DNA of 64,000 nucleotides from an uncultured Spartobacteria bacterium (GTDB taxonomy: Bacteria > Verrucomicrobiota > Verrucomicrobiia > Chthoniobacterales > Chthoniobacteraceae). The notes below the pieces were generated by a model. The model was not told the DNA's origin. It saw only the letters and a program-made list of their open reading frames with translations, and did no database searches. Location: contig CAIRYQ010000129.1 in assembly GCA_903882875.1 (NCBI GenBank), positions 1 through 64,000 of the forward strand, given 5' to 3'. This document shows, one piece after another, positions 24,620 to 33,085 of this stretch; position 1 is the stretch's first letter, and each line of letters opens with the position of its first letter. A program made the position numbers and the translations under genes.

Positions 24620-25705
24620 CTACTTTTTCAGATTCGCGACGATCTCGTCCGTGAGCTTCTGCACGAGCGCCTCGACCTCCGCGTTGCTCGCGGGCGCATC
24701 GTTCGTCATCGGATTGAACGGCGTGACCGGCGACGAGCAGCCGTGCGAGCCGCACATCTGCACCCACGGATCCACTTCGCACAGGCCCGCGGGCTTGAGG
24801 TCGTAACGGTCGTCAGGCAGGCCGAGGCTCTTCTTGATGTTGAGCAGCTCGGGCAGCTTGTCGCACGGAATGGACGCGCTTCCGGGAATGGACTGCGCGA
24901 GGATCACCGTGCGGCAATACGCGTCGGTGATCTCCATTTTGAAATACGCGTCCTCGACCGATTTGCCCCAGCAAATCACGCCGTGGTTGCCCATGAGGAT
25001 GGACTGGTGCTTCGGCGCGAGCGGGAAAATCTCCGCGGCGATCTCCGGCGAACCCGGTGTCTTGTAAGGCGTGTAGGCGACTGTGCCGACGAACACTTCC
25101 AACTCGGGAATGAGTCGCGGCGGTGGCTGCATGCCTTTGATCGCAAACGCTCCCGCGTGGCACGGATGCGCGTGGCAGACGCTCACCGCCTCGGGCGTGG
25201 AGTGGAAGATGGCCATGTGCGTCGTGATTTCGCTGGAGCGTTTCCACGTTCCGCCGAGCTGCTTTCCCTTGCCGTCCACCATGCACATCATGTCGGGCGT
25301 CATGAAGCCCTTGCTGACGCCCGTCGGCGTGCAGATGAAACGATCCGGGCCGAGCCGCGCGGAGATGTTGCCACCGTTGCCGTCGCAATACTCGCGCGCC
25401 CAGATGCGACGCCCGATGTCGCAGATCTGCTCCTTGATCGTGTTCGCTTCCTTCGAGGCAAAAAGTGCGATGTCTGCCGCGCTGTACGGTGCTGGCGTGG
25501 CGACGGGCGCATAGCCCGCCGATGCGGCGGTTGGCTTTGCGTCGCCCCATGGAGAGGGCGCGGCACCGTCGTACACAACTTTCACTCCGGCCTCGGTGAA
25601 AACGTCCTTCGCGCCGGGCGTCAGGCGCGTCTCGCCGTTCTGCCGGAATTCCTTCGCGCCGGTTTTCACAAAGTCGGCTGCTTCTTTCTGTGCGATCAGT
25701 TTCAT
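24620..25705 (-). CDS. Microcompartment class II aldolase (fuculose/rhamnulose-1-phosphate aldolase type)
   Basis: 361 residues. The class II aldolase/adducin fold is shown by GNGGNISARLG, the zinc site CHAHPCHAG and GNHGVICWG. It should cleave a deoxy-ketose-1-phosphate to dihydroxyacetone phosphate and lactaldehyde, the entry step of planctomycete-type microcompartments. An N-terminal extension of about 75 residues includes LTPGAKDVFTEAGVKVVYD, a motif seen in other microcompartment-associated enzymes, then a Pro/Ala linker; I infer it serves lumen targeting. Last gene of the operon, 3 bp after a shell pentamer gene. Fucose/rhamnose isomerases and kinases are not in the window. Confidence 0.85.
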   Translation of the reverse strand: MKLIAQKEAADFVKTGAKEFRQNGETRLTPGAKDVFTEAGVKVVYDGAAPSPWGDAKPTAASAGYAPVATPAPYSAADIALFASKEANTIKEQICDIGRRIWAREYCDGNGGNISARLGPDRFICTPTGVSKGFMTPDMMCMVDGKGKQLGGTWKRSSEITTHMAIFHSTPEAVSVCHAHPCHAGAFAIKGMQPPPRLIPELEVFVGTVAYTPYKTPGSPEIAAEIFPLAPKHQSILMGNHGVICWGKSVEDAYFKMEITDAYCRTVILAQSIPGSASIPCDKLPELLNIKKSLGLPDDRYDLKPAGLCEVDPWVQMCGSHGCSSPVTPFNPMTNDAPASNAEVEALVQKLTDEIVANLKK

Positions 25706-25708
25706 AGA

Positions 25709-25987
25709 TTATTCCTTGTAGAAAATTTCGTCCACGAGCGCGGCGCAGTAGGCGTCCACGGGCGTCGGCTTCTCAAACGGGCACGCGGCCTCGCGGCCTT
25801 CACTGATGGCGATCTGCTGGCCGACACCCGCGCCGAGTTGATCGTAAACGACGATGGCCGGGTCGTGTTTCTGCGCGCCGCCGAAAGTGTCGGTCTTCCA
25901 AGGCAGCGTGAGAAGCAGCCGCTCGCCGATGTATTTCTTCGAACGCACCGAGAGCGTTACGCGACCGATGACCGTGCCCATTCTCAT
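25709..25987 (-). CDS. Microcompartment shell pentamer (BMC-P, EutN/CcmL family)
   Basis: 92 residues from the ATG at 25987, chosen because it overlaps the upstream stop in ATGA (translational coupling); an internal ATG at 25981 is the alternative. MGTVIGRVTLSVRSKKYIGE starts the beta-barrel, and YDQLGAGVGQQIAISEG carries the conserved LGAG pore motif. The C-terminal VDAYCAALVDEIF is the usual terminal helix. BMC-P pentamers close the vertices of the icosahedral shell. One of three here. Confidence 0.9.
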   Translation of the reverse strand: MRMGTVIGRVTLSVRSKKYIGERLLLTLPWKTDTFGGAQKHDPAIVVYDQLGAGVGQQIAISEGREAACPFEKPTPVDAYCAALVDEIFYKE

Positions 25988-26247
25988 AGCGCGAGACTCC
26001 TCTCCGGATCGATGATGCCCATCACGGTCCACCGCGCCGGGCTGCGCTCGTCGCCGACGATCTTGCGCGCCTCGCTGCCATCGCTCGAAATCATCACCTT
26101 CTGCCCGATGCCCGCACCGAGCGCGTCGAGCACGATTTGCGGCGCGAGATCGGGACTCTCCGGCACAGCGATGAGAAGCCGCCAGCCTTCGAGGCTTTTG
26201 TGCTTCATCGTCGAGGTGACGTGGCCTTTGATCGTTGCGATTCGCAT
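25984..26247 (-). CDS. Microcompartment shell pentamer (BMC-P, EutN/CcmL family)
   Basis: 87 residues: MRIATIKGHVTSTMKHKSLE, then LDALGAGIGQKVMISSDGSE with the LGAG motif, ending in VMGIIDPERSL. It abuts the aldehyde dehydrogenase stop with no gap and overlaps the next pentamer gene by ATGA, so the three genes are tightly coupled. Its sequence differs enough from the other two BMC-P copies to suggest distinct vertex roles, as in the characterised planctomycete locus. Confidence 0.9.
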   Translation of the reverse strand: MRIATIKGHVTSTMKHKSLEGWRLLIAVPESPDLAPQIVLDALGAGIGQKVMISSDGSEARKIVGDERSPARWTVMGIIDPERSLAL

Positions 26248-27678
26248 TTAGAAAAGGTTGAGATTTTCGACCATCACGCAGCGGCGCGAGCGCGTGAATG
26301 TCATTGGAGTCGTCACGCCTTCGCCGGTCGGCGTGGCGACGGAAAAACTGAGGAAGCCTTCACCGCCGAGTCCGAGGCCAGTCATGCACGGGCCGTTCTT
26401 GATGAAGAGCGTCGTGTCCACGACCTGTGCCATTTTGGTGAGGTTGCGGATGTTCTGCGAATGCATGATCGCCGTGTGCTTGTAGTTGTGCTCGGCCTTG
26501 ATCGCCTCCGCGATGGCGACATCCACATTCGGCACGCGTACAACTGGGATGAACGGCATCATCTGCTCCTCATCCACGAAAATGTGATCCGCCTTCGTCT
26601 CGCCGAAGAGGAGCTGCGTGGAAGGCGGGACATCAAGCCCGATGGCCTTTGCGAGCACTGCGGCATCACGTCCGACGAGGTCGCGGTTCACGACCGGATG
26701 CGGGCAGCCCGCGCCTTTTCCCTGCGGGAAAACGAATGCCTTCTCAGCGAGCGCCTCGACTTGCTTCGCGTCGAGTTGCACGGCTCCGGCGCGCTTCAGC
26801 GCAGCCATGAGTTTGTCCGCGACGGCTTCCACGACGAACACTTCCTTCTCGCCGATGCAGAGCAAATTATTGTCGTAGCTCGCGCCTTGGATGATGCACT
26901 TCGCCGCGTGATCGAGGTCCGCGGTTTCGTCCACGACGACCGGCGGATTTCCCGGCCCGGCGCAAATCGCGCGCTTGCCGGCTTTCATCGCCGCGGCGAC
27001 GACCGCCGGGCCGCCGGTGACGCAGAGCAGGCGCACCTTCGGGTGCTTGCACATGATGTCGAAGGTTTCGAGTGTCGGCTTCACCACGGTCGTGAGCAGG
27101 TCGCTGATGCCGGTCTCCTGAAAAATCGCCTCGTTGTAAGCGCGCACCGCGAGCGCCGCCACGTTGCACGCGGCAGGATGCGTGTTGAACACCGCCGCGT
27201 TGCCCGCGGCGATCATGTTGATCGCGTTGCCGGTGAGCGTCGGGACGCTGTGCGTCGAGGGAGTCACCGCGCCGATCACGCCCCACGGCGCGTAATCAAT
27301 GATCGTCAGGCCGAAGTCGCCGCTGAACGCCATGCGCTCGAGAAACTCCACTCCGGGCACAAGGTCGCCGCAAATCTTGAGCTTCTCGATCTTGTGATCG
27401 AGCCGGCCGATCTTCGTCTCGGCCATTTCGATTTCGCCCCACTCCTTCGCCTTCGCGACGCACATCTTGCGGATGACGTTGATCGCCTTGCGCCGCGCCG
27501 ACACGCCGAGTTCGCGCAGCTTTTCAAACGAGCGATGCGCCGCCTCACAGGCGTCCTCCATTTTGTCATACACGCCGAACGCGGTCTTCGATGAAGGCGC
27601 GGCCTTCGTCTGCGAGGCGAGGCGGGCGAGCACTTCGCTCACCACTTTGGACACCAGCTTTTCGTCAATCGTTGCCAT
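26248..27678 (-). CDS. CoA-acylating aldehyde dehydrogenase of the microcompartment (PduP-like)
   Basis: 476 residues. It oxidises the aldehyde (lactaldehyde/propionaldehyde class) to acyl-CoA with NAD. The catalytic cysteine is Cys274 in NNLLCIGEKEV, and the cofactor loop is around GAVTPSTHSVPTLTGN. Residues 1-20 (MATIDEKLVSKVVSEVLARL) form an amphipathic helix followed by a Ser/Ala/Pro linker, the classic encapsulation-peptide layout of PduP/EutE enzymes. Flanked on both sides by BMC-P genes. Its acyl-CoA product would pass to PduL. Confidence 0.92.
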   Translation of the reverse strand: MATIDEKLVSKVVSEVLARLASQTKAAPSSKTAFGVYDKMEDACEAAHRSFEKLRELGVSARRKAINVIRKMCVAKAKEWGEIEMAETKIGRLDHKIEKLKICGDLVPGVEFLERMAFSGDFGLTIIDYAPWGVIGAVTPSTHSVPTLTGNAINMIAAGNAAVFNTHPAACNVAALAVRAYNEAIFQETGISDLLTTVVKPTLETFDIMCKHPKVRLLCVTGGPAVVAAAMKAGKRAICAGPGNPPVVVDETADLDHAAKCIIQGASYDNNLLCIGEKEVFVVEAVADKLMAALKRAGAVQLDAKQVEALAEKAFVFPQGKGAGCPHPVVNRDLVGRDAAVLAKAIGLDVPPSTQLLFGETKADHIFVDEEQMMPFIPVVRVPNVDVAIAEAIKAEHNYKHTAIMHSQNIRNLTKMAQVVDTTLFIKNGPCMTGLGLGGEGFLSFSVATPTGEGVTTPMTFTRSRRCVMVENLNLF

Positions 27679-27693
27679 GTGAGGAATCTAGTT

Positions 27694-28002
27694 TTACTGC
27701 GCTTTGAAAAGGATGTGTTTGCCGACATCCACGGTGTCCACGATGCCGATCACGACGGCATCCAAGGGAGCGTCCTTGTCGTCAGTGGCGAGCCGCGCGG
27801 AACTGCCCTGCACGATGAGGACGATTTCGCCCTCACCCGCGCCGAGGGTGTCCGTGACCACGAGCGTGCTCGTGCCGGGCTTCCATTCCTTGGCCGTCGG
27901 CGAATCAATCACGAGCGGACGCACGAGGAGAAACTTGTTCCCCGTCATCTTCTTGTTTTTCTTCGTCGCGACGACGCTGCCTTCTACGCGGGCTAAAATC
28001 AT
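27694..28002 (-). CDS. Microcompartment shell pentamer (BMC-P, EutN/CcmL family)
   Basis: 102 residues, the longest of the three pentamers: MILARVEGSVVATKKNKKMT, VVTDTLGAGEGEIVLIVQGS with the LGAG pore motif, then AVVIGIVDTVDVGKHILFKAQ. A basic Lys/Asn loop near residues 14-22 is longer than in the other copies. It lies 15 bp before the dehydrogenase gene and is separated from the upstream BMC-H gene by a hairpin. Confidence 0.9.
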   Translation of the reverse strand: MILARVEGSVVATKKNKKMTGNKFLLVRPLVIDSPTAKEWKPGTSTLVVTDTLGAGEGEIVLIVQGSSARLATDDKDAPLDAVVIGIVDTVDVGKHILFKAQ

Positions 28003-28011
28003 GGTCGGAGT

Positions 28012-28077
28012 TTTGATCCGCGACGCATACGAAATGCGCAGAATGGTTCTGCGTCCGCGGCGTCTGCGGAGATCAAA
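28012..28077. repeat. Intercistronic long hairpin in the microcompartment operon
   Basis: TTTGATC (28012-28018) pairs with GATCAAA (28071-28077). Inside it, CGCAGAA/TTCTGCG (28037-28043 with 28047-28053) forms a perfect 7-bp stem with a 3-nt loop. It fills the gap between BMC-H and BMC-P cistrons. It may be an RNA processing or stability element, or a repetitive palindrome. Confidence 0.6.
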
Positions 28078-28359
28078 TTACTTCGCCTTCGGCAGCACTG
28101 CGACGAGGTCGCCGTGCGGGCGCGCGATGACGCTGATGCTGACGATTTCGCCGAGTCCTTGCGCGGCGATTTTGCCGGCTTCGGTCGCGGCCTTCACAGC
28201 GGCGACATCGCCGGTGACGCAGACGGTCACCATTGCGTTTCCGACCTGGGTGATGGGGCCGACGAGTTCGACGTTGGCGGATTTGAGCATCGCGTCCGTC
28301 GCCTCGACGAGTGCGACGAGACCGCGGGTTTCGATGAGTCCGATTGCTTGTTGTGCCAT
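28078..28359 (-). CDS. Microcompartment shell hexamer (BMC-H)
   Basis: 93 residues of a single Pfam-BMC-type domain: [20 protein letters not shown], then MLKSANVELVGPITQVGNAM and [20 protein letters not shown], ending in VIARPHGDLVAVLPKAK. Hexamers tile the flat shell facets; the central pore loop here reads QVGNA. It lies between ackA and a pentamer gene, apart from the two other BMC-H genes. Confidence 0.93.
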   Translation of the reverse strand: MAQQAIGLIETRGLVALVEATDAMLKSANVELVGPITQVGNAMVTVCVTGDVAAVKAATEAGKIAAQGLGEIVSISVIARPHGDLVAVLPKAK

Positions 28360-28375
28360 GGGTTTTGTTTGGTTT

Positions 28376-29560
28376 TTAGTTGAGTGCAGAAAGTTTTGCC
28401 CACGCGTTGCGGGCGATGATGATTTCCTCGTTCGTGGGGATGACGCGCACCTCGATCTTCGAGCGTGGCGTTGAGATCACGGCCTCGCTCGCGCGGGTGC
28501 TGTTGTTCGCATCGCGATCCAGTTCGAGGCCGCAAAAATCGAGGTTCGTGCAAATCTGTTCGCGCAGGCCCGGGTTATTCTCGGCGATGCCGGCGGTGAA
28601 GATGAGCATGTCCGCGCCGTTCAGTTCGACGAGGAACTGGCCGATGTATTTGCGGATTGCGCCGATGAAAACATCGAGCGCGATTTTCGCGTCCGCGTTT
28701 CCATTGCTCGCCGCGTCCATGATGTCGCGCACGTCACCGCTGGCCATGCCCGACAGGCCCTTGAGGCCGGATTGCGAGGTGAGCGCCTTTTCCACGGCAT
28801 CAATCCCGAGGCCGAGATCCCGCGCGAGATAGATGAGCGCGAAGCAGTCGAAGTCGCCCACACGGTTGTTCTGCGGCAGTCCGCTTTGCGCCGTCATGCC
28901 CCAGCTCGAATCAATCGCCTTTCCATCGCGCACCGCCGCGATGGAACTGCTGCCGCCGAGGTGGCACGAAATGATGCGCAGCTTGTCCGTGCCGCGCAGT
29001 TCCGCGCATCGCTGCGAGACGAAGCGGTGGCTCGCGCCGTGGAATCCGTAGCGGCGGATCCCATATTTCGTCTCCCATTCGCGCGGCACCGGATAGCGCG
29101 TGTTTTCCACCGGCACCTCGTCGTAAAATGCCGTCTCGAATGTGCCGATGCACGGCAGCTTCGGGTGCGATTTGTGGAAGCTGCGCACGGCTGCGACGTA
29201 GGGCGGATTGTGCGCGGGCAGGAGTGTGTTGATTTCCTCCATCGCGCGCAGCACGGGTTCCGCGAGCACCTGCGTGCCCGAGATGCCGCGCGCCATCACC
29301 GGCTTGAAGCCGACCGCCGCGAGTTCGCCGAATCCGCCGAGCAATTTCTCGACGAGCGCGATGGCCGCGCCGTGGTCGGGCAATGCAGCCGTGCCTTTCT
29401 GCTCCGGCTCGCCGCCGATCTGCGCTTTCCAAGGCGACTCCGCGCTGCCGATGCGCTCCACGCCACCCTTCGCCAGCACGCGTTCGGACGGCATCTCGAT
29501 CAAGCGGAACTTGAACGAGGTGCTGCCGATGTTGGCGACGAGGATTTTGTTCGGAGTCAT
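28376..29560 (-). CDS. ackA: Acetate kinase-family enzyme of the microcompartment (divergent)
   Basis: 394 residues of the acetokinase family: VANIGSTSFKF (phosphate loop), YGFHGASH (His174), CHLGGSSSIAAVRDGK and the Arg233-containing NNRVGDFD. It should make ATP from acetyl-, propionyl- or lactyl-phosphate produced by PduL. Two usual active-site residues are altered by my eye alignment: the catalytic Asp of FDTAFH is Glu142 (FETAFY), and the Arg of HRVVHGG appears as Lys86 (VGFKPV). A homologue belongs to the known planctomycete-type locus. Preceded by a long hairpin. Confidence 0.88.
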   Translation of the reverse strand: MTPNKILVANIGSTSFKFRLIEMPSERVLAKGGVERIGSAESPWKAQIGGEPEQKGTAALPDHGAAIALVEKLLGGFGELAAVGFKPVMARGISGTQVLAEPVLRAMEEINTLLPAHNPPYVAAVRSFHKSHPKLPCIGTFETAFYDEVPVENTRYPVPREWETKYGIRRYGFHGASHRFVSQRCAELRGTDKLRIISCHLGGSSSIAAVRDGKAIDSSWGMTAQSGLPQNNRVGDFDCFALIYLARDLGLGIDAVEKALTSQSGLKGLSGMASGDVRDIMDAASNGNADAKIALDVFIGAIRKYIGQFLVELNGADMLIFTAGIAENNPGLREQICTNLDFCGLELDRDANNSTRASEAVISTPRSKIEVRVIPTNEEIIIARNAWAKLSALN

Positions 29561-29576
29561 GGATTCAGCGCGGTCG

Positions 29577-29634
29577 CATCGGTCCTATCGTTTCCATTTG
29601 TCCCACGGGACAAAGGTGACGAATAAGACCGATG
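29577..29634. repeat. Long imperfect hairpin between BMC-H and ackA
   Basis: CATCGGTC (29577-29584) pairs with GACCGATG (29627-29634), and TTTGTCC pairs with GGACAAA around 29597-29614. The strands between are largely complementary, giving one nearly continuous stem of about 26 bp. Its ATCGGTCCTATCG/AATAAGACCGATG text resembles dispersed repeats I recall from Planctomycetes and Verrucomicrobia genomes. It separates shell and kinase cistrons. Confidence 0.65.
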
Positions 29635-29638
29635 GGAA

Positions 29639-29944
29639 TTACTTCGCGACGGCGTTCGCGGGTTTTCCGCCGAGGAATTTTCCGAGAAGGTGCAGGTCGT
29701 CGTGCGGACGCGGGATCACATGGACGGCCACGACTTCGCCGATGGCGGTCGCGGCGGTCGCGCCGGCTTCGACTGCGGCCTTCACCGCGGCGACATCGCC
29801 TTTTACAAAGACGGTCACGTAGCCCGAGCCGACTTTTTCCCAGCCGATGAGTTCCACATTCGCGGCCTTCGTCATTGCGTCCGTTGCTTCGAACTGCGCG
29901 ACGAGGCCTTTGGTTTCGATCATTCCGATTGCTTGTCCAGCCAT
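29639..29944 (-). CDS. Microcompartment shell hexamer (BMC-H)
   Basis: 101 residues from the ATG at 29944: [20 protein letters not shown], pore loop KVGSG (the PduA-like form), [20 protein letters not shown], then [18 protein letters not shown] and a short tail ANAVAK. The KVGSG pore is the type associated with small polar metabolites in PduA. The frame stays open upstream to 30109 through the intergenic gap and the next gene, but homology begins at MAGQAIG. Confidence 0.93.
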
Positions 29945-29984
29945 AGTATTTGAGAGGTAAAAGTTGAGTGTTGAGTGCCTGCGT

Positions 29985-30254
29985 CTAGCTCGTGAAGAAC
30001 TTGAGCAGCTCCGGCGTGGGCCGGGCGATGACGTGGGATGCGACGAGGTTGCCGACGCGTTTAGCCGCTTCCTTCCCGGCTTCGACGGCGGCTTTGACGC
30101 TGCCGACATCCCCGCGGACGATGGTCGTGATCAGCGCGCCGCCGATCGGGATGGATTTTACCAGTTGCACATTCGCGGCCTTGACCATGGCATCACTGGC
30201 TTCCACCAGGCCCACGTAGCCGCGAGTTTCGATTAGTCCGATTGCTTCGCTCAT
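29985..30254 (-). CDS. Microcompartment shell hexamer (BMC-H)
   Basis: 89 residues, the shortest of the three: [20 protein letters not shown], pore region SIPIGGA instead of x[24 protein letters not shown], ending [15 protein letters not shown]. The differing pore sequence implies different permeability from the 29639 copy. Second gene of the operon, 90 bp after pduL; that gap is T-rich on the plus strand and contains a small CCGCAA/TTGCGG hairpin. Confidence 0.93.
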
Positions 30255-30344: not shown

Positions 30345-31016
30345 TCAGGATTTGATGAGTTCGACCTTCGTCACTCGTTCGAGGTCGCAGGCGTTCGCCT
30401 CGTCGGTGTCTATGTGGACTTCCAATTTGAAGCTCGGGTCCACGCGCACGATCATTTCGTCAAAGCGCGTGTTGCACATCGGCGACGTGACTTTCATCGT
30501 GATCCGGTCGAGGTGCTTGACTCCGTAAAATTTCGCATCGCTCGGAGACATGTGGACGTGCCGCGCCGCGCGGATGATGCCGTCCTTCATTTCGAGCATC
30601 CCCTTTGGTCCCATCACGTATCCGCCCGGCGTGCCTTGAATGTCACCCGACATGCGCACCGGGATGTCCATGCCGAGCTGAATCGCGTCGGTGATGGCGA
30701 GTTCGATCTGCGTGAGATTCCGGCAGGGGCCGAGGATGCGCAGGTTCGGAATGACGCGACGGCGCGGCCCGATGAGCGTCACGGTCTGCTCCGAGGCAAA
30801 CTGTCCTTCCTGGTAAAGCATCTTGTGGACGGTCAGCTTCGCGCCCTTGCCGAACAGCGCTTCGAGATTCTCCGGCGAAATGTGCATGTGCCGCGCCGAA
30901 CTGTTCACCACGAGCGTCGGCGGATTCGCGGGCGCTTCCTGTCCGAGCTGCTTCGCCAAAGTGGAGCGCACGAGAGCCTCGATGACGGGGCGGCTGGGGG
31001 CATTGATGGCGCTCAT
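30345..31016 (-). CDS. pduL: Phosphate propanoyltransferase (PduL type)
   Basis: 223 residues. It converts acyl-CoA and phosphate to acyl-phosphate, regenerating CoA inside the shell. Two halves of the duplicated barrel carry the metal-binding histidines: ARHMHIS (His43, His45) and ARHVHMS (His153, His155), with a further His201 in KLEVHIDTDEANA, the PduL signature end. N-terminal residues 1-25 form a short helix (VIEALVRSTLAKQLG) consistent with an encapsulation peptide. First gene of the operon; its promoter overlaps an operator-like dyad. Confidence 0.93.
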   Translation of the reverse strand: MSAINAPSRPVIEALVRSTLAKQLGQEAPANPPTLVVNSSARHMHISPENLEALFGKGAKLTVHKMLYQEGQFASEQTVTLIGPRRRVIPNLRILGPCRNLTQIELAITDAIQLGMDIPVRMSGDIQGTPGGYVMGPKGMLEMKDGIIRAARHVHMSPSDAKFYGVKHLDRITMKVTSPMCNTRFDEMIVRVDPSFKLEVHIDTDEANACDLERVTKVELIKS

Positions 31017-31034
31017 TTTTCTGGAGAAAGCTTA

Positions 31035-31054
31035 TATGACTGCTCGCAATCATA
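31035..31054. promoter_or_regulatory. Candidate DeoR-type operator, site 0 (on operon promoter)
   Basis: TATGACTGCTCGCAATCATA, part of a perfect 8-bp inverted repeat (TTATATGA/TCATATAA, 31032-31057) with a 10-bp spacer. It shares the pattern TATRA-N10-TCRTA with two other sites around the adjacent deoR-type gene. It overlaps the -10 box of the microcompartment promoter, fitting a repressor site. Confidence 0.6.
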
Positions 31055-31076
31055 TAAAAATCCTGCGTTCGGTCAA
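31049..31076 (-). promoter_or_regulatory. Sigma-70-type promoter of the microcompartment operon
   Basis: On the minus strand, TTGACC (31076-31071), a 16-bp spacer and TATGAT (31054-31049). The -35 and -10 each match 5 of 6 consensus bases. The predicted start near 31042 leaves about 25 nt before the pduL ATG. The -10 lies within the left half of operator site 0 as read in the transcription direction. Confidence 0.6.
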
Positions 31077-31095
31077 TGGAAAAATTCGTCTTTTT

Positions 31096-31115
31096 TACGA
31101 ACGTGTTCAGTCATA
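31096..31115. promoter_or_regulatory. Candidate DeoR-type operator, site 1 (at regulator stop codon)
   Basis: On the minus strand, TATGACTGAACACGTTCGTA, matching site 0 in the first eight bases and in the TCRTA end, with the same 10-bp spacer. It covers the last codons and stop of the regulator gene. Its centre is 61 bp from that of site 0, close to six helical turns, so looped binding is possible. Confidence 0.55.
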
Positions 31116-31980
31116 AAATATAGACCGGTATTTCGTCCCTCTCCGCCTCTGCGACAGAGGCGCTCTCCGGTACCGGGAGTGCCTGCGCAGTCGGATGACG
31201 CCCACCCGCCGGGGCGCGCTGCCCGTCTTTCAGTGTGATCCCGGCCTTCTCGATCCGTTCGGCGGAAACATCCGTGACCAACACATCCACCCTGTCCCAC
31301 GACACGAGGAAATGCGGTGCCTCGCGGTTCAGCTTCGAGCCATCAATGCAAAAAACCGTCCGCCTGCTGCGTTCGAGCACGACCCGTTGCTGGTCCACGA
31401 TAGCCGCCTGCGAATTCCACACCCCCGCCGGATTCATCGCCTCCGCCGAGAGGAATGCCGTGTCGAATTTCCAAAACTCCAGACTCTTCTGCGCCGTTTC
31501 GCCGAGCAGCGTGGACTGCAAGTGCAAGAGCTGCCCCGCGACCATGAACACCTGCACGTCTGGAATCGCCGCCAGCATTTCCGCGACCGGAAGATTCGAG
31601 GTCACGACCGTCACCGGCGTGACCGGACGATTGCAGAACATCTCCGCCACCGCGAAAATCGTCGTCCCGGAATCGAGAAAGTAAGTCCCGTTCGGCTCCA
31701 TTAGCGCCACCGTCGCCCGGGCGATCTTCGCCTTCGCCTGCGCGGCCCTCCCCTGCCGATCCCGAAATGAAGGAAACCGGTCATTAAACTCCGAAAGCGC
31801 CCCGCCGTGGGTTCGTTTGATCTTCTTTTCCCCGAGCAGCGCCGCTAGATCACGGCGTGCCGTGGCCTCTGACACGCCAAGCCTACGGCACAGTTCCTTC
31901 ACCGGCAGGTAACGATGTTGCCCGAGCAACTGAGCAAGCCGCTCGCGACGAGCCTGCACGATATGGAAGGGAACTTTCAC
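31111..31980 (-). CDS. DeoR-family transcriptional regulator of the microcompartment operon
   Basis: 289 residues. The N-terminal helix-turn-helix is LPVKELCRRLGVSEATARRD, followed by the DeoR wing (KIKRTHGGAL). The C-terminal DeoRC sensor domain shows DSGTTIFAVAEMF, TVVTSNLPVAEML and FCIDGSKLNREAPHF; it normally binds a phosphorylated sugar. It is co-oriented with and directly upstream of pduL, so by position and analogy it should repress the operon until a fucose/rhamnose catabolite appears. A nonconserved tail of about 35 residues follows the core. Candidate operators flank it. Confidence 0.9.
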   Translation of the reverse strand: MKVPFHIVQARRERLAQLLGQHRYLPVKELCRRLGVSEATARRDLAALLGEKKIKRTHGGALSEFNDRFPSFRDRQGRAAQAKAKIARATVALMEPNGTYFLDSGTTIFAVAEMFCNRPVTPVTVVTSNLPVAEMLAAIPDVQVFMVAGQLLHLQSTLLGETAQKSLEFWKFDTAFLSAEAMNPAGVWNSQAAIVDQQRVVLERSRRTVFCIDGSKLNREAPHFLVSWDRVDVLVTDVSAERIEKAGITLKDGQRAPAGGRHPTAQALPVPESASVAEAERDEIPVYIL

Positions 31981-31999
31981 GCTTTGAAAATCCGGTTTT

Positions 32000-32019
32000 T
32001 ATGAACGATGTCAATTATA
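32000..32019. promoter_or_regulatory. Candidate DeoR-type operator, site 2, over the regulator's own -10 box
   Basis: On the minus strand, TATAATTGACATCGTTCATA. It fits TATRA-N10-TCRTA with 10-bp spacing; over a 25-bp window (31996-32020 against 31092-31116) it matches site 1 at 19 positions. It contains a perfect TATAAT (32019-32014) about 35 bp before the regulator start, so binding would give autoregulation. A perfect TTGACA overlaps it as well. Confidence 0.55.
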
Positions 32020-32098
32020 ACCTGTGCCCAAAAAAATGCGCGATCCAGTCAGGCTGAGGCATTCTCACATTCCTTCGCGAGAAGTGTTCAATCCTGCT

Positions 32099-33085
32099 TC
32101 ACCGTTGCGGTGGGTTTGCGACAGGCGTGATTTTTTCCGCGATGGCTCGTGCAAGGATTTCGTGACCGCGACCGTTCAGGTGCGCAGTGTCCATAAAAAG
32201 CGGTGCGAAGTCCGTGCCGGAAAACACGTCCTTCATCGTAAGGACATCCACGCCCGGCGCGACGAATGAACGGGCGAGATCATCGAGGCCGCTGTCGTCG
32301 AGCGTGGCGGATTTTCCTGTCCCGCGCATCCGCACCTGCGTGACGAGCAGCACGGGCACGCCGGCCGCGCGGCAGAGGTCGAGATCTTCCTTCAGAAAAT
32401 TGCGGACGCGATCCTGCCAGGCGCGGATTTGCTTTTCATCTGTCATCGCGATGATCTTTGCGCCCGCATCGTTCATGCCCTGCTGCGCGCGGATTTTTTC
32501 GGGCAGCAGCGACCAGAATACACCCTCAGTCTTCATCTCGTGGAGACGGCGGACGAGCAGGCTTTTCATCAGCAGATTTTTCGGATGCCAGCCCTGGAAA
32601 TCCTGACTGCGCCGCCACTCACGTTCGTCCTCGTATTCGTTCGAGTTGTTCACATGGCGGATGATGAGACTCGGCTGGTATTTCAAAGCCTGCGCGAGCA
32701 CGATGTGGCAGCGGTGCGCGCCGTAGCCGGGCAGGCATAGATTCCAGCCTTCGGCGGGGATGCCGGGGCCGTTTACGAATTCCGCGACACGTGTCGAGTA
32801 GGCCTCCGCAAGCGATGGGCCGCGCGGCACCGAGTCGCCGACGACCATGATACGAAACAAGCCCCTGGGCTTCTTCTGTATGTAGAGCTGCCGATGAAAA
32901 CGGCGCCCTCCCGCGCGCACGAGTTCGAGTCCACCGTTGGGCTTTTCCACGAAACCCGCAGTCGGATGGTAGCCGTAATCGAAACGTCCCGAGAGCCCGC
33001 GCGACCAGAATGCGCGCATGGCGATCTCCGCAACGACGAGGATGGCGATGACGAGCAAGAATGTTTTTGTGAACGCGCTGTGCAT
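32099..33085 (-). CDS. SGNH-hydrolase-like protein (AlgJ/AlgX role) paired with MBOAT
   Basis: 328 residues from the ATG at 33085, which overlaps the MBOAT stop as TGATG. One N-terminal membrane anchor (FLLVIAILVVAEIAMRAF). The SGNH signature is IMVVGDSVPRGPS (nucleophile Ser85), with the C-terminal Asp-x-x-His block in DTAHLNGRGHEIL. In such pairs the MBOAT moves the acyl group across the membrane and the SGNH protein places it on an exported polysaccharide. The polymer is not known here; no glycan synthase gene adjoins. Confidence 0.85.
   Translation of the reverse strand: MHSAFTKTFLLVIAILVVAEIAMRAFWSRGLSGRFDYGYHPTAGFVEKPNGGLELVRAGGRRFHRQLYIQKKPRGLFRIMVVGDSVPRGPSLAEAYSTRVAEFVNGPGIPAEGWNLCLPGYGAHRCHIVLAQALKYQPSLIIRHVNNSNEYEDEREWRRSQDFQGWHPKNLLMKSLLVRRLHEMKTEGVFWSLLPEKIRAQQGMNDAGAKIIAMTDEKQIRAWQDRVRNFLKEDLDLCRAAGVPVLLVTQVRMRGTGKSATLDDSGLDDLARSFVAPGVDVLTMKDVFSGTDFAPLFMDTAHLNGRGHEILARAIAEKITPVANPPQR

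Follow-up and report, generated by a model that had tools for sequence, protein, structure and literature searches.

Putative palindromic operators of a DeoR-type regulator at a rhamnose/fucose microcompartment locus of an uncultured Spartobacteria bacterium, with a candidate site inside the regulator gene

Escherichia coli DeoR, the founding member of its family, controls the deoxyribonucleoside pathway by way of looping and multiple operators, which lie hundreds of bp apart. GlpR of E. coli recognises a 20-bp palindromic operator of the form TATG...CATA, of which several are found in its regulon, some of them within coding sequence. PVM loci are defined by a class II aldolase as signature enzyme together with PduL, an acylating aldehyde dehydrogenase, BMC-H/BMC-P, acetate kinase and a DeoR regulator (PMC4207490). 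In Planctopirus limnophila the DeoR protein PvmA controls the same compartment type; the promoters predicted for regulator and compartment are separate, the PvmA/PpvmB system responds to induction by rhamnose and shows derepression in E. coli, and PvmA is inferred to act as a repressor (PMC11958385). The motifs of the DeoR-type RhaR regulators of rhamnose catabolism, finally, are imperfect direct repeats with a period of 10-11 bp (Rodionova 2013, PMC3870299).

The locus studied here lies in a 64-kb stretch of DNA (the window) from a 5.78-Mb genome that among named organisms is closest to Chthoniobacter-like Verrucomicrobiota. By Pfam and NCBIfam assignments its gene content is that of a PVM-type microcompartment locus (Table 1); the third, probable BMC-H gene (28078-28359) was assigned from tblastn matches in relatives. 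The regulator combines an N-terminal helix-turn-helix (PF08220) with a C-terminal DeoRC sensor domain (PF00455), both above their gathering scores, which makes it a DeoR-family protein, and it stays below all of the curated equivalog cut-offs (GlpR, AgaR, UlaR, SrlR, FucR, DeoR), reaching at best 122.6 bits against 300. Its C-terminal tail PV[HY][IF]L (31114-31131, at the 3' end of deoR) is conserved in most close relatives, the region preceding it being variable, and may possibly have a role in oligomerisation or ligand binding. The deoR-pduL intergenic region of 94 bp holds two dyads, and a search for an intrinsic terminator between these genes found none. The genome further contains a rhamnulokinase-like gene, near which no operator was found; a search of the genome for a FucI-family L-fucose isomerase found none.

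Table 1. Genes, predicted promoter elements and putative operators in the window (operator scores by the held-out matrix).
Feature	Position	Strand	Evidence or remark
deoR, DeoR/GlpR-type regulator, 289 aa, GTG start	31111..31980	-	PF00455 1.8e-34, PF08220 3.1e-16
pduL phosphotransacylase, first compartment-operon gene	30345..31016	-	PF06130 2.7e-68; NF011652 above cut-off
remaining compartment operon	24620..30254	-	Pfam + NCBIfam
BMC-H shell proteins	29985-30254, 29639-30109, probably 28078-28359	-	Pfam/NCBIfam
acetate kinase	28376-29560	-	Pfam/NCBIfam
BMC-P	27694-28002, 25984-26247, probably 25709-26032	-	Pfam/NCBIfam
acylating aldehyde dehydrogenase	26248-27678	-	Pfam/NCBIfam
class II aldolase	24620-25705	-	Pfam/NCBIfam
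compartment promoter, TTGACC, 16 bp, TATGAT	31049..31076	-	only sigma70-like site in 30900-32150
candidate -35 TTGACA of regulator promoter, within O1	32009..32014	-	predicted
O1 (site 2 of the initial annotation), TATAATTGACATCGTTCATA	32000..32019	-	score 23.2, the window's best; 20-39 bp upstream of deoR GTG
O2, intragenic, deoR codons 66-72 (NDRFPSF), AATGACCGGTTTCCTTCATT	31766..31785	-	score 20.9
O3 (site 1 of the initial annotation), putative weak auxiliary site, TATGACTGAACACGTTCGTA	31096..31115	-	score 15.8; contains deoR stop TGA
O4 (site 0 of the initial annotation), TATGATTGCGAGCAGTCATA	31035..31054	-	score 21.7; over compartment promoter -10 and start region

The initial annotation had described three 20-bp dyads of the form TATRA-N10-TCRTA (O4, O3 and O1) with CTG or TTG after the first arm. 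All three are present where it had placed them and match this pattern, the CTG/TTG element is correct once each dyad is read in its proper direction, and O4 and O3 are indeed 61 bp apart from centre to centre. Within the window the pattern occurs in these three places only (O4 on both strands), it is found in none of 100 dinucleotide shuffles of the window, and across the 5.78 Mb, where all searches were degenerate pattern scans, it has one extra match (G000:C122:77484), which by the later matrix scores as a non-operator (-2.8). The motif as first stated is too short, the true one being longer and more symmetric, with the 20-bp palindrome TATGATTGANNTCAATCATA as the consensus of all sites, and the set of three has become one of four: a fourth, better-scoring dyad, O2, was missed because its ends are A...T and not T...A. 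When a more symmetric pattern was scanned against the genome, the window sites again ranked on top. A held-out matrix made from 32 operators, all from outside the window's family, likewise places the four sites first in the 64 kb, with the next position scoring 5.2. The other hits in the genome, C58:42466 (matrix score 19.1) and C106:24806 (17.0), are both intragenic, the former inside a gene read as a TrbE/VirB4-type ATPase; both were taken as chance and used for false-positive calibration, and with chance scores of this height a lone intragenic score is therefore no proof.

Conservation in related genomes, on which the initial annotation had made its proposal depend, is clear. Loci were gathered around pduL (80) and, in addition, around deoR, plus extended regions, from relatives that are almost all Verrucomicrobiota, and a site was counted when its matrix score was at least 11. 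An operator was thus found at 52 of 65 orthologous loci upstream of deoR and at 41 of 48 upstream of pduL, counts which are independent inside the window's family and not fully so outside it, because those sites partly trained the matrix; 13 deoR loci and seven pduL loci have no recognisable site. Upstream of deoR the dyad occupies -38 to -45 in the majority of these 52 loci and in nearly all close orthologues; upstream of pduL it is mostly found at -33 to -59, reaching about -70 in L180 and L181. In 23 distinct pduL operators TATGA does not vary, nor do C13, T16 and C17. The sites at the promoters are 20-bp inverted repeats of the form TATG-N12-CATA, which places them in the class of GlpR-like palindromic operators. 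On this comparison the same predicted operator sequence recurs before the same genes across the whole bacterial class. Some loci show a different arrangement, with two strong operators upstream of deoR (L023 at 4066 and 4146, L024 at 3859 and 3885) and none at pduL, which suggests that deoR and the compartment genes form a single transcript there.

The dyad tracks the regulator and not the compartment. In contrast to the counts above, none of a further 46 PVM loci from Verrucomicrobiota (L038-L084 except L069) carries the operator upstream of pduL, and nearly all of these have a divergently oriented, non-orthologous DeoR of about 30% identity, the helix-turn-helix of the two regulator types differing as well (VSEATARRDL against S[IV]STVRRDL or similar). 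In these Limisphaerales-type loci (for example L047, L048 and L055) direct repeats TTGGAAGAT-TTTGCAAGAT with a period of about 10 bp are found next to TTGAC; here the same compartment has an operator code of another kind. Conversely, pduL and deoR lie on separate contigs in G015, G150, G032 and G083, and the pduL operator is kept with deoR on another contig (L178, 19.9; L179, 18.4; L180, 28.0; L181, 29.3), which fits action in trans. Where the compartment is absent from the locus (L146, L152, L157, L167, L168), the regulator orthologue keeps its own operator and has as neighbours genes for rhamnulokinase, rhamnose isomerase, the bifunctional rhamnulose-1-P aldolase/dehydrogenase (RhaD) or L-fucose isomerase. 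These neighbours point to a methylpentose-derived ligand, which probably is L-rhamnulose-1-P or L-fuculose-1-P.

At pduL the geometry of operator and promoter is nearly constant. Of 27 loci, 24 have the arrangement TTGACS-N16-TATGAT, in which the spacing from TTGAC is exactly 16 bp and the operator opens with the -10 hexamer, which bears out the earlier placement of O4 over the -10 of the compartment promoter; a site over the -10 and start region is a repressor position. The regulator promoter is a different matter, since TATAAT (32014-32019), which the initial annotation had read as its -10, has an upstream -35 of 2/6 at best, and in relatives it is the TTGACA of O1 that has the look of a -35. 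The TATAAT of the operator is preceded by a -35 matching at 4/6 or better in 5 of 37 loci, and we rejected this as the leading reading; TATAAT probably does not serve as a -10. Downstream of the TTGAC in the deoR operator, a -10 matching at 4/6 or better stands at 15-19 bp in 13 of the 37 loci, where a control window gives 1 of 37, so that O1 more likely overlaps the -35 of the regulator promoter. Each reading is weak in the window itself, where the -10 downstream of the O1 TTGACA matches at 3/6. The autoregulation proposed earlier is implied by a site upstream of the regulator gene in the 52 loci.

The interesting part of the operator set is O2. Of the 20 orthologues that have N[DE]R at the O2 position, 15 encode Ser71 by TCA and 18 encode Asn66 by AAT, TCA making up 6% of the Ser codons in these genes and AAT having a background of 52%; in orthologues without N[DE]R there, TCA is used for Ser71 in 4 of 44. 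In 16 compartment-linked deoR genes codons 66-72 are the stretch of seven with the strongest codon bias in the gene, and by this measure Ser71 heads the 103 conserved positions. In nine relatives, moreover, offset +195 tops 820 deoR offsets by mean matrix score (19.1, the next being -11.3). The conserved AAT...TCA codons thus indicate constraint at the DNA level. Two genomes of the same genus, in which deoR lies away from the compartment, encode the identical NDRFPSF with AAC and TCC/TCG; both fall inside an O2-bearing clade of the regulator tree (97/91), and the absence of O2 from them is therefore probably due to one loss. Over the whole tree, the distribution of O2 needs at least 4-5 changes. 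Several loci with linked deoR do not have the site (L009, L015, L021, L022), and one genome in which pduL was not detected has it (L111). The strongest intragenic site of all (23.3) is found in G121 (L148/L182), a 71%-complete genome in which no pduL was detected. We consider it likely that O2 is a real operator.

O3 contains the deoR stop codon, and its left half is therefore partly coding. Its score, 15.8 in the window, differs between relatives: some have 20.5, 18.3 and 13.6, and in three close ones it drops to 7-11. Most members of the family have it 60-61 bp from O4 (two have it at 63 and 50 bp), a spacing that is also the top upstream offset among relatives, and L092 and L094 have a strong site 222-223 bp upstream in its place. 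O3 keeps the 60-61 bp in L178 and L179, where deoR lies elsewhere and the site is possibly a remnant of an old deoR end. Other lineages have auxiliary sites at other distances (L007, L022, L023, L024, L035). By its scores and distribution O3 appears to be a weak auxiliary operator limited to the window's family, and the 60-61 bp spacing together with the recurrence of auxiliary sites makes looping plausible.

But are all four sites functional? One could argue that only O4 and O1 are, and that O2 and O3 are coincidences of the NDRFPSF code and of the Leu-stop codons TTA-TGA. Both sites do overlap coding sequence, chance intragenic matches of 17-19 occur in this genome, and O3 is weak in several relatives. 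Coincidence would however not readily explain why TCA and AAT are used at O2 far beyond the genes' own codon usage, why the same seven amino acids are encoded by other codons in the two same-genus genomes with unlinked deoR, and why O3 stays at its distance without deoR upstream, even if the possible deoR remnant weakens this last point. We therefore regard coincidence at O2 and O3 as unlikely. An alternative to looping is plain steric repression at each promoter, with the auxiliary sites serving as a local reservoir or roadblock. That the auxiliary position differs by lineage (50, 60-63 and 222-223 bp) favours steric repression, whereas the near-constant spacing inside the family and the recurrence of auxiliary sites at several distances elsewhere speak for looping, and we give the case without looping a chance only slightly short of even.

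Our direct observations concern the sites, in their sequence, position and conservation, the geometry of the promoter, the codon constraint at O2 and the co-occurrence with the orthologous regulator. Binding of the dyads by another factor, such as a global regulator, instead of the adjacent DeoR seems to us extremely improbable, as the motif goes with the orthologous DeoR throughout the class, whether or not a compartment is present, is gone where this regulator is replaced and has essentially no further occurrences in the genome. The same DeoR might also bind the sites as an activator or dual regulator, and the model of the L-fucose operon activator is indeed among its weaker NCBIfam DeoR-family matches; this match, however, amounts to 76 bits against a cut-off of 259, O4 has the position of a repressor site, and the related construct of P. 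limnophila is strongly expressed in E. coli in the absence of rhamnose (PMC11958385). We hold activation or dual regulation to be very unlikely.

Taken together, the dyads are very probably real binding sites of the neighbouring sugar-sensing repressor, by which the rhamnose/fucose compartment would be switched. We are highly confident of the explanation as a whole, in which they would be operators of the adjacent DeoR for compartment repression and autoregulation, with O2 and O3 as auxiliary sites and release by a sugar phosphate; binding, repression, ligand and looping are what we infer from the sequences compared. Without inducer, the repressor would sit on O4, where the -10 and the start region of the pduL promoter lie, and keep the compartment operon silent, and on O1 it would regulate its own promoter. 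O2 within its own gene and O3 at the stop codon would raise the local repressor concentration and would probably permit looping or form a roadblock against transcription that runs on from deoR into the operon. Release of the repressor would probably be brought about by a phosphorylated intermediate of methylpentose breakdown (L-rhamnulose-1-P or L-fuculose-1-P). More tentatively, and with the feeling that it is rather less probable than its opposite, we suggest that the codon-constrained O2, which is kept in many loci with deoR directly upstream of the compartment, belongs to a four-operator region in which transcription of the regulator is coupled to silencing of the organelle operon by a complex, looped or roadblocked, that spans deoR.

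The proposed operators would provide a concrete and testable code for a widespread sugar-degrading bacterial organelle. Such a code lets the operons of the regulon be predicted, including those of genomes with unlinked regulator and organelle and of organelle-free rhamnose/fucose loci, and the locus supplies the design of a native inducible promoter. O2, moreover, would be a clean case of a protein code and an operator code on one stretch of DNA.

The closest described system is PvmA/PpvmB of P. limnophila (PVM microcompartment; Erbilgin 2014), which like the window has the DeoR gene directly upstream of rhamnose/fucose compartment genes. It belongs to another phylum and, by its published description, has an intergenic region of 46 bp as opposed to the 94 bp with two dyads found here. 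The initial annotation knew of no description of such a control scheme for this compartment class; this does not hold for DeoR control as such, which is published for P. limnophila, and holds for the operator, which, unlike in the window, is not defined in the accessible part of that account (PMC11958385). The RhaR regulators, including B. subtilis RhaR, also belong to the DeoR family and have a local rhamnose regulon, and several orthologues of the window regulator adjoin rhamnose genes; the motif of the window, however, is a true palindrome (inverted repeat) and not a direct-repeat operator of RhaR type (PMC3870299). Our literature searches for an operator of this compartment class or regulator, and for intragenic operators of DeoR proteins, found no paper on either. 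Similarity of the regulator to E. coli DeoR is low, at 57 bits against an equivalog cut-off of 244. As compared to E. coli GlpR, the inner bases of the operator differ (TATGTTCG in GlpR, TATGATTG in the window), as does the ligand, and the intragenic site of the window lies in the regulator's own gene. The type of control is nonetheless that of the known DeoR/GlpR repressors.
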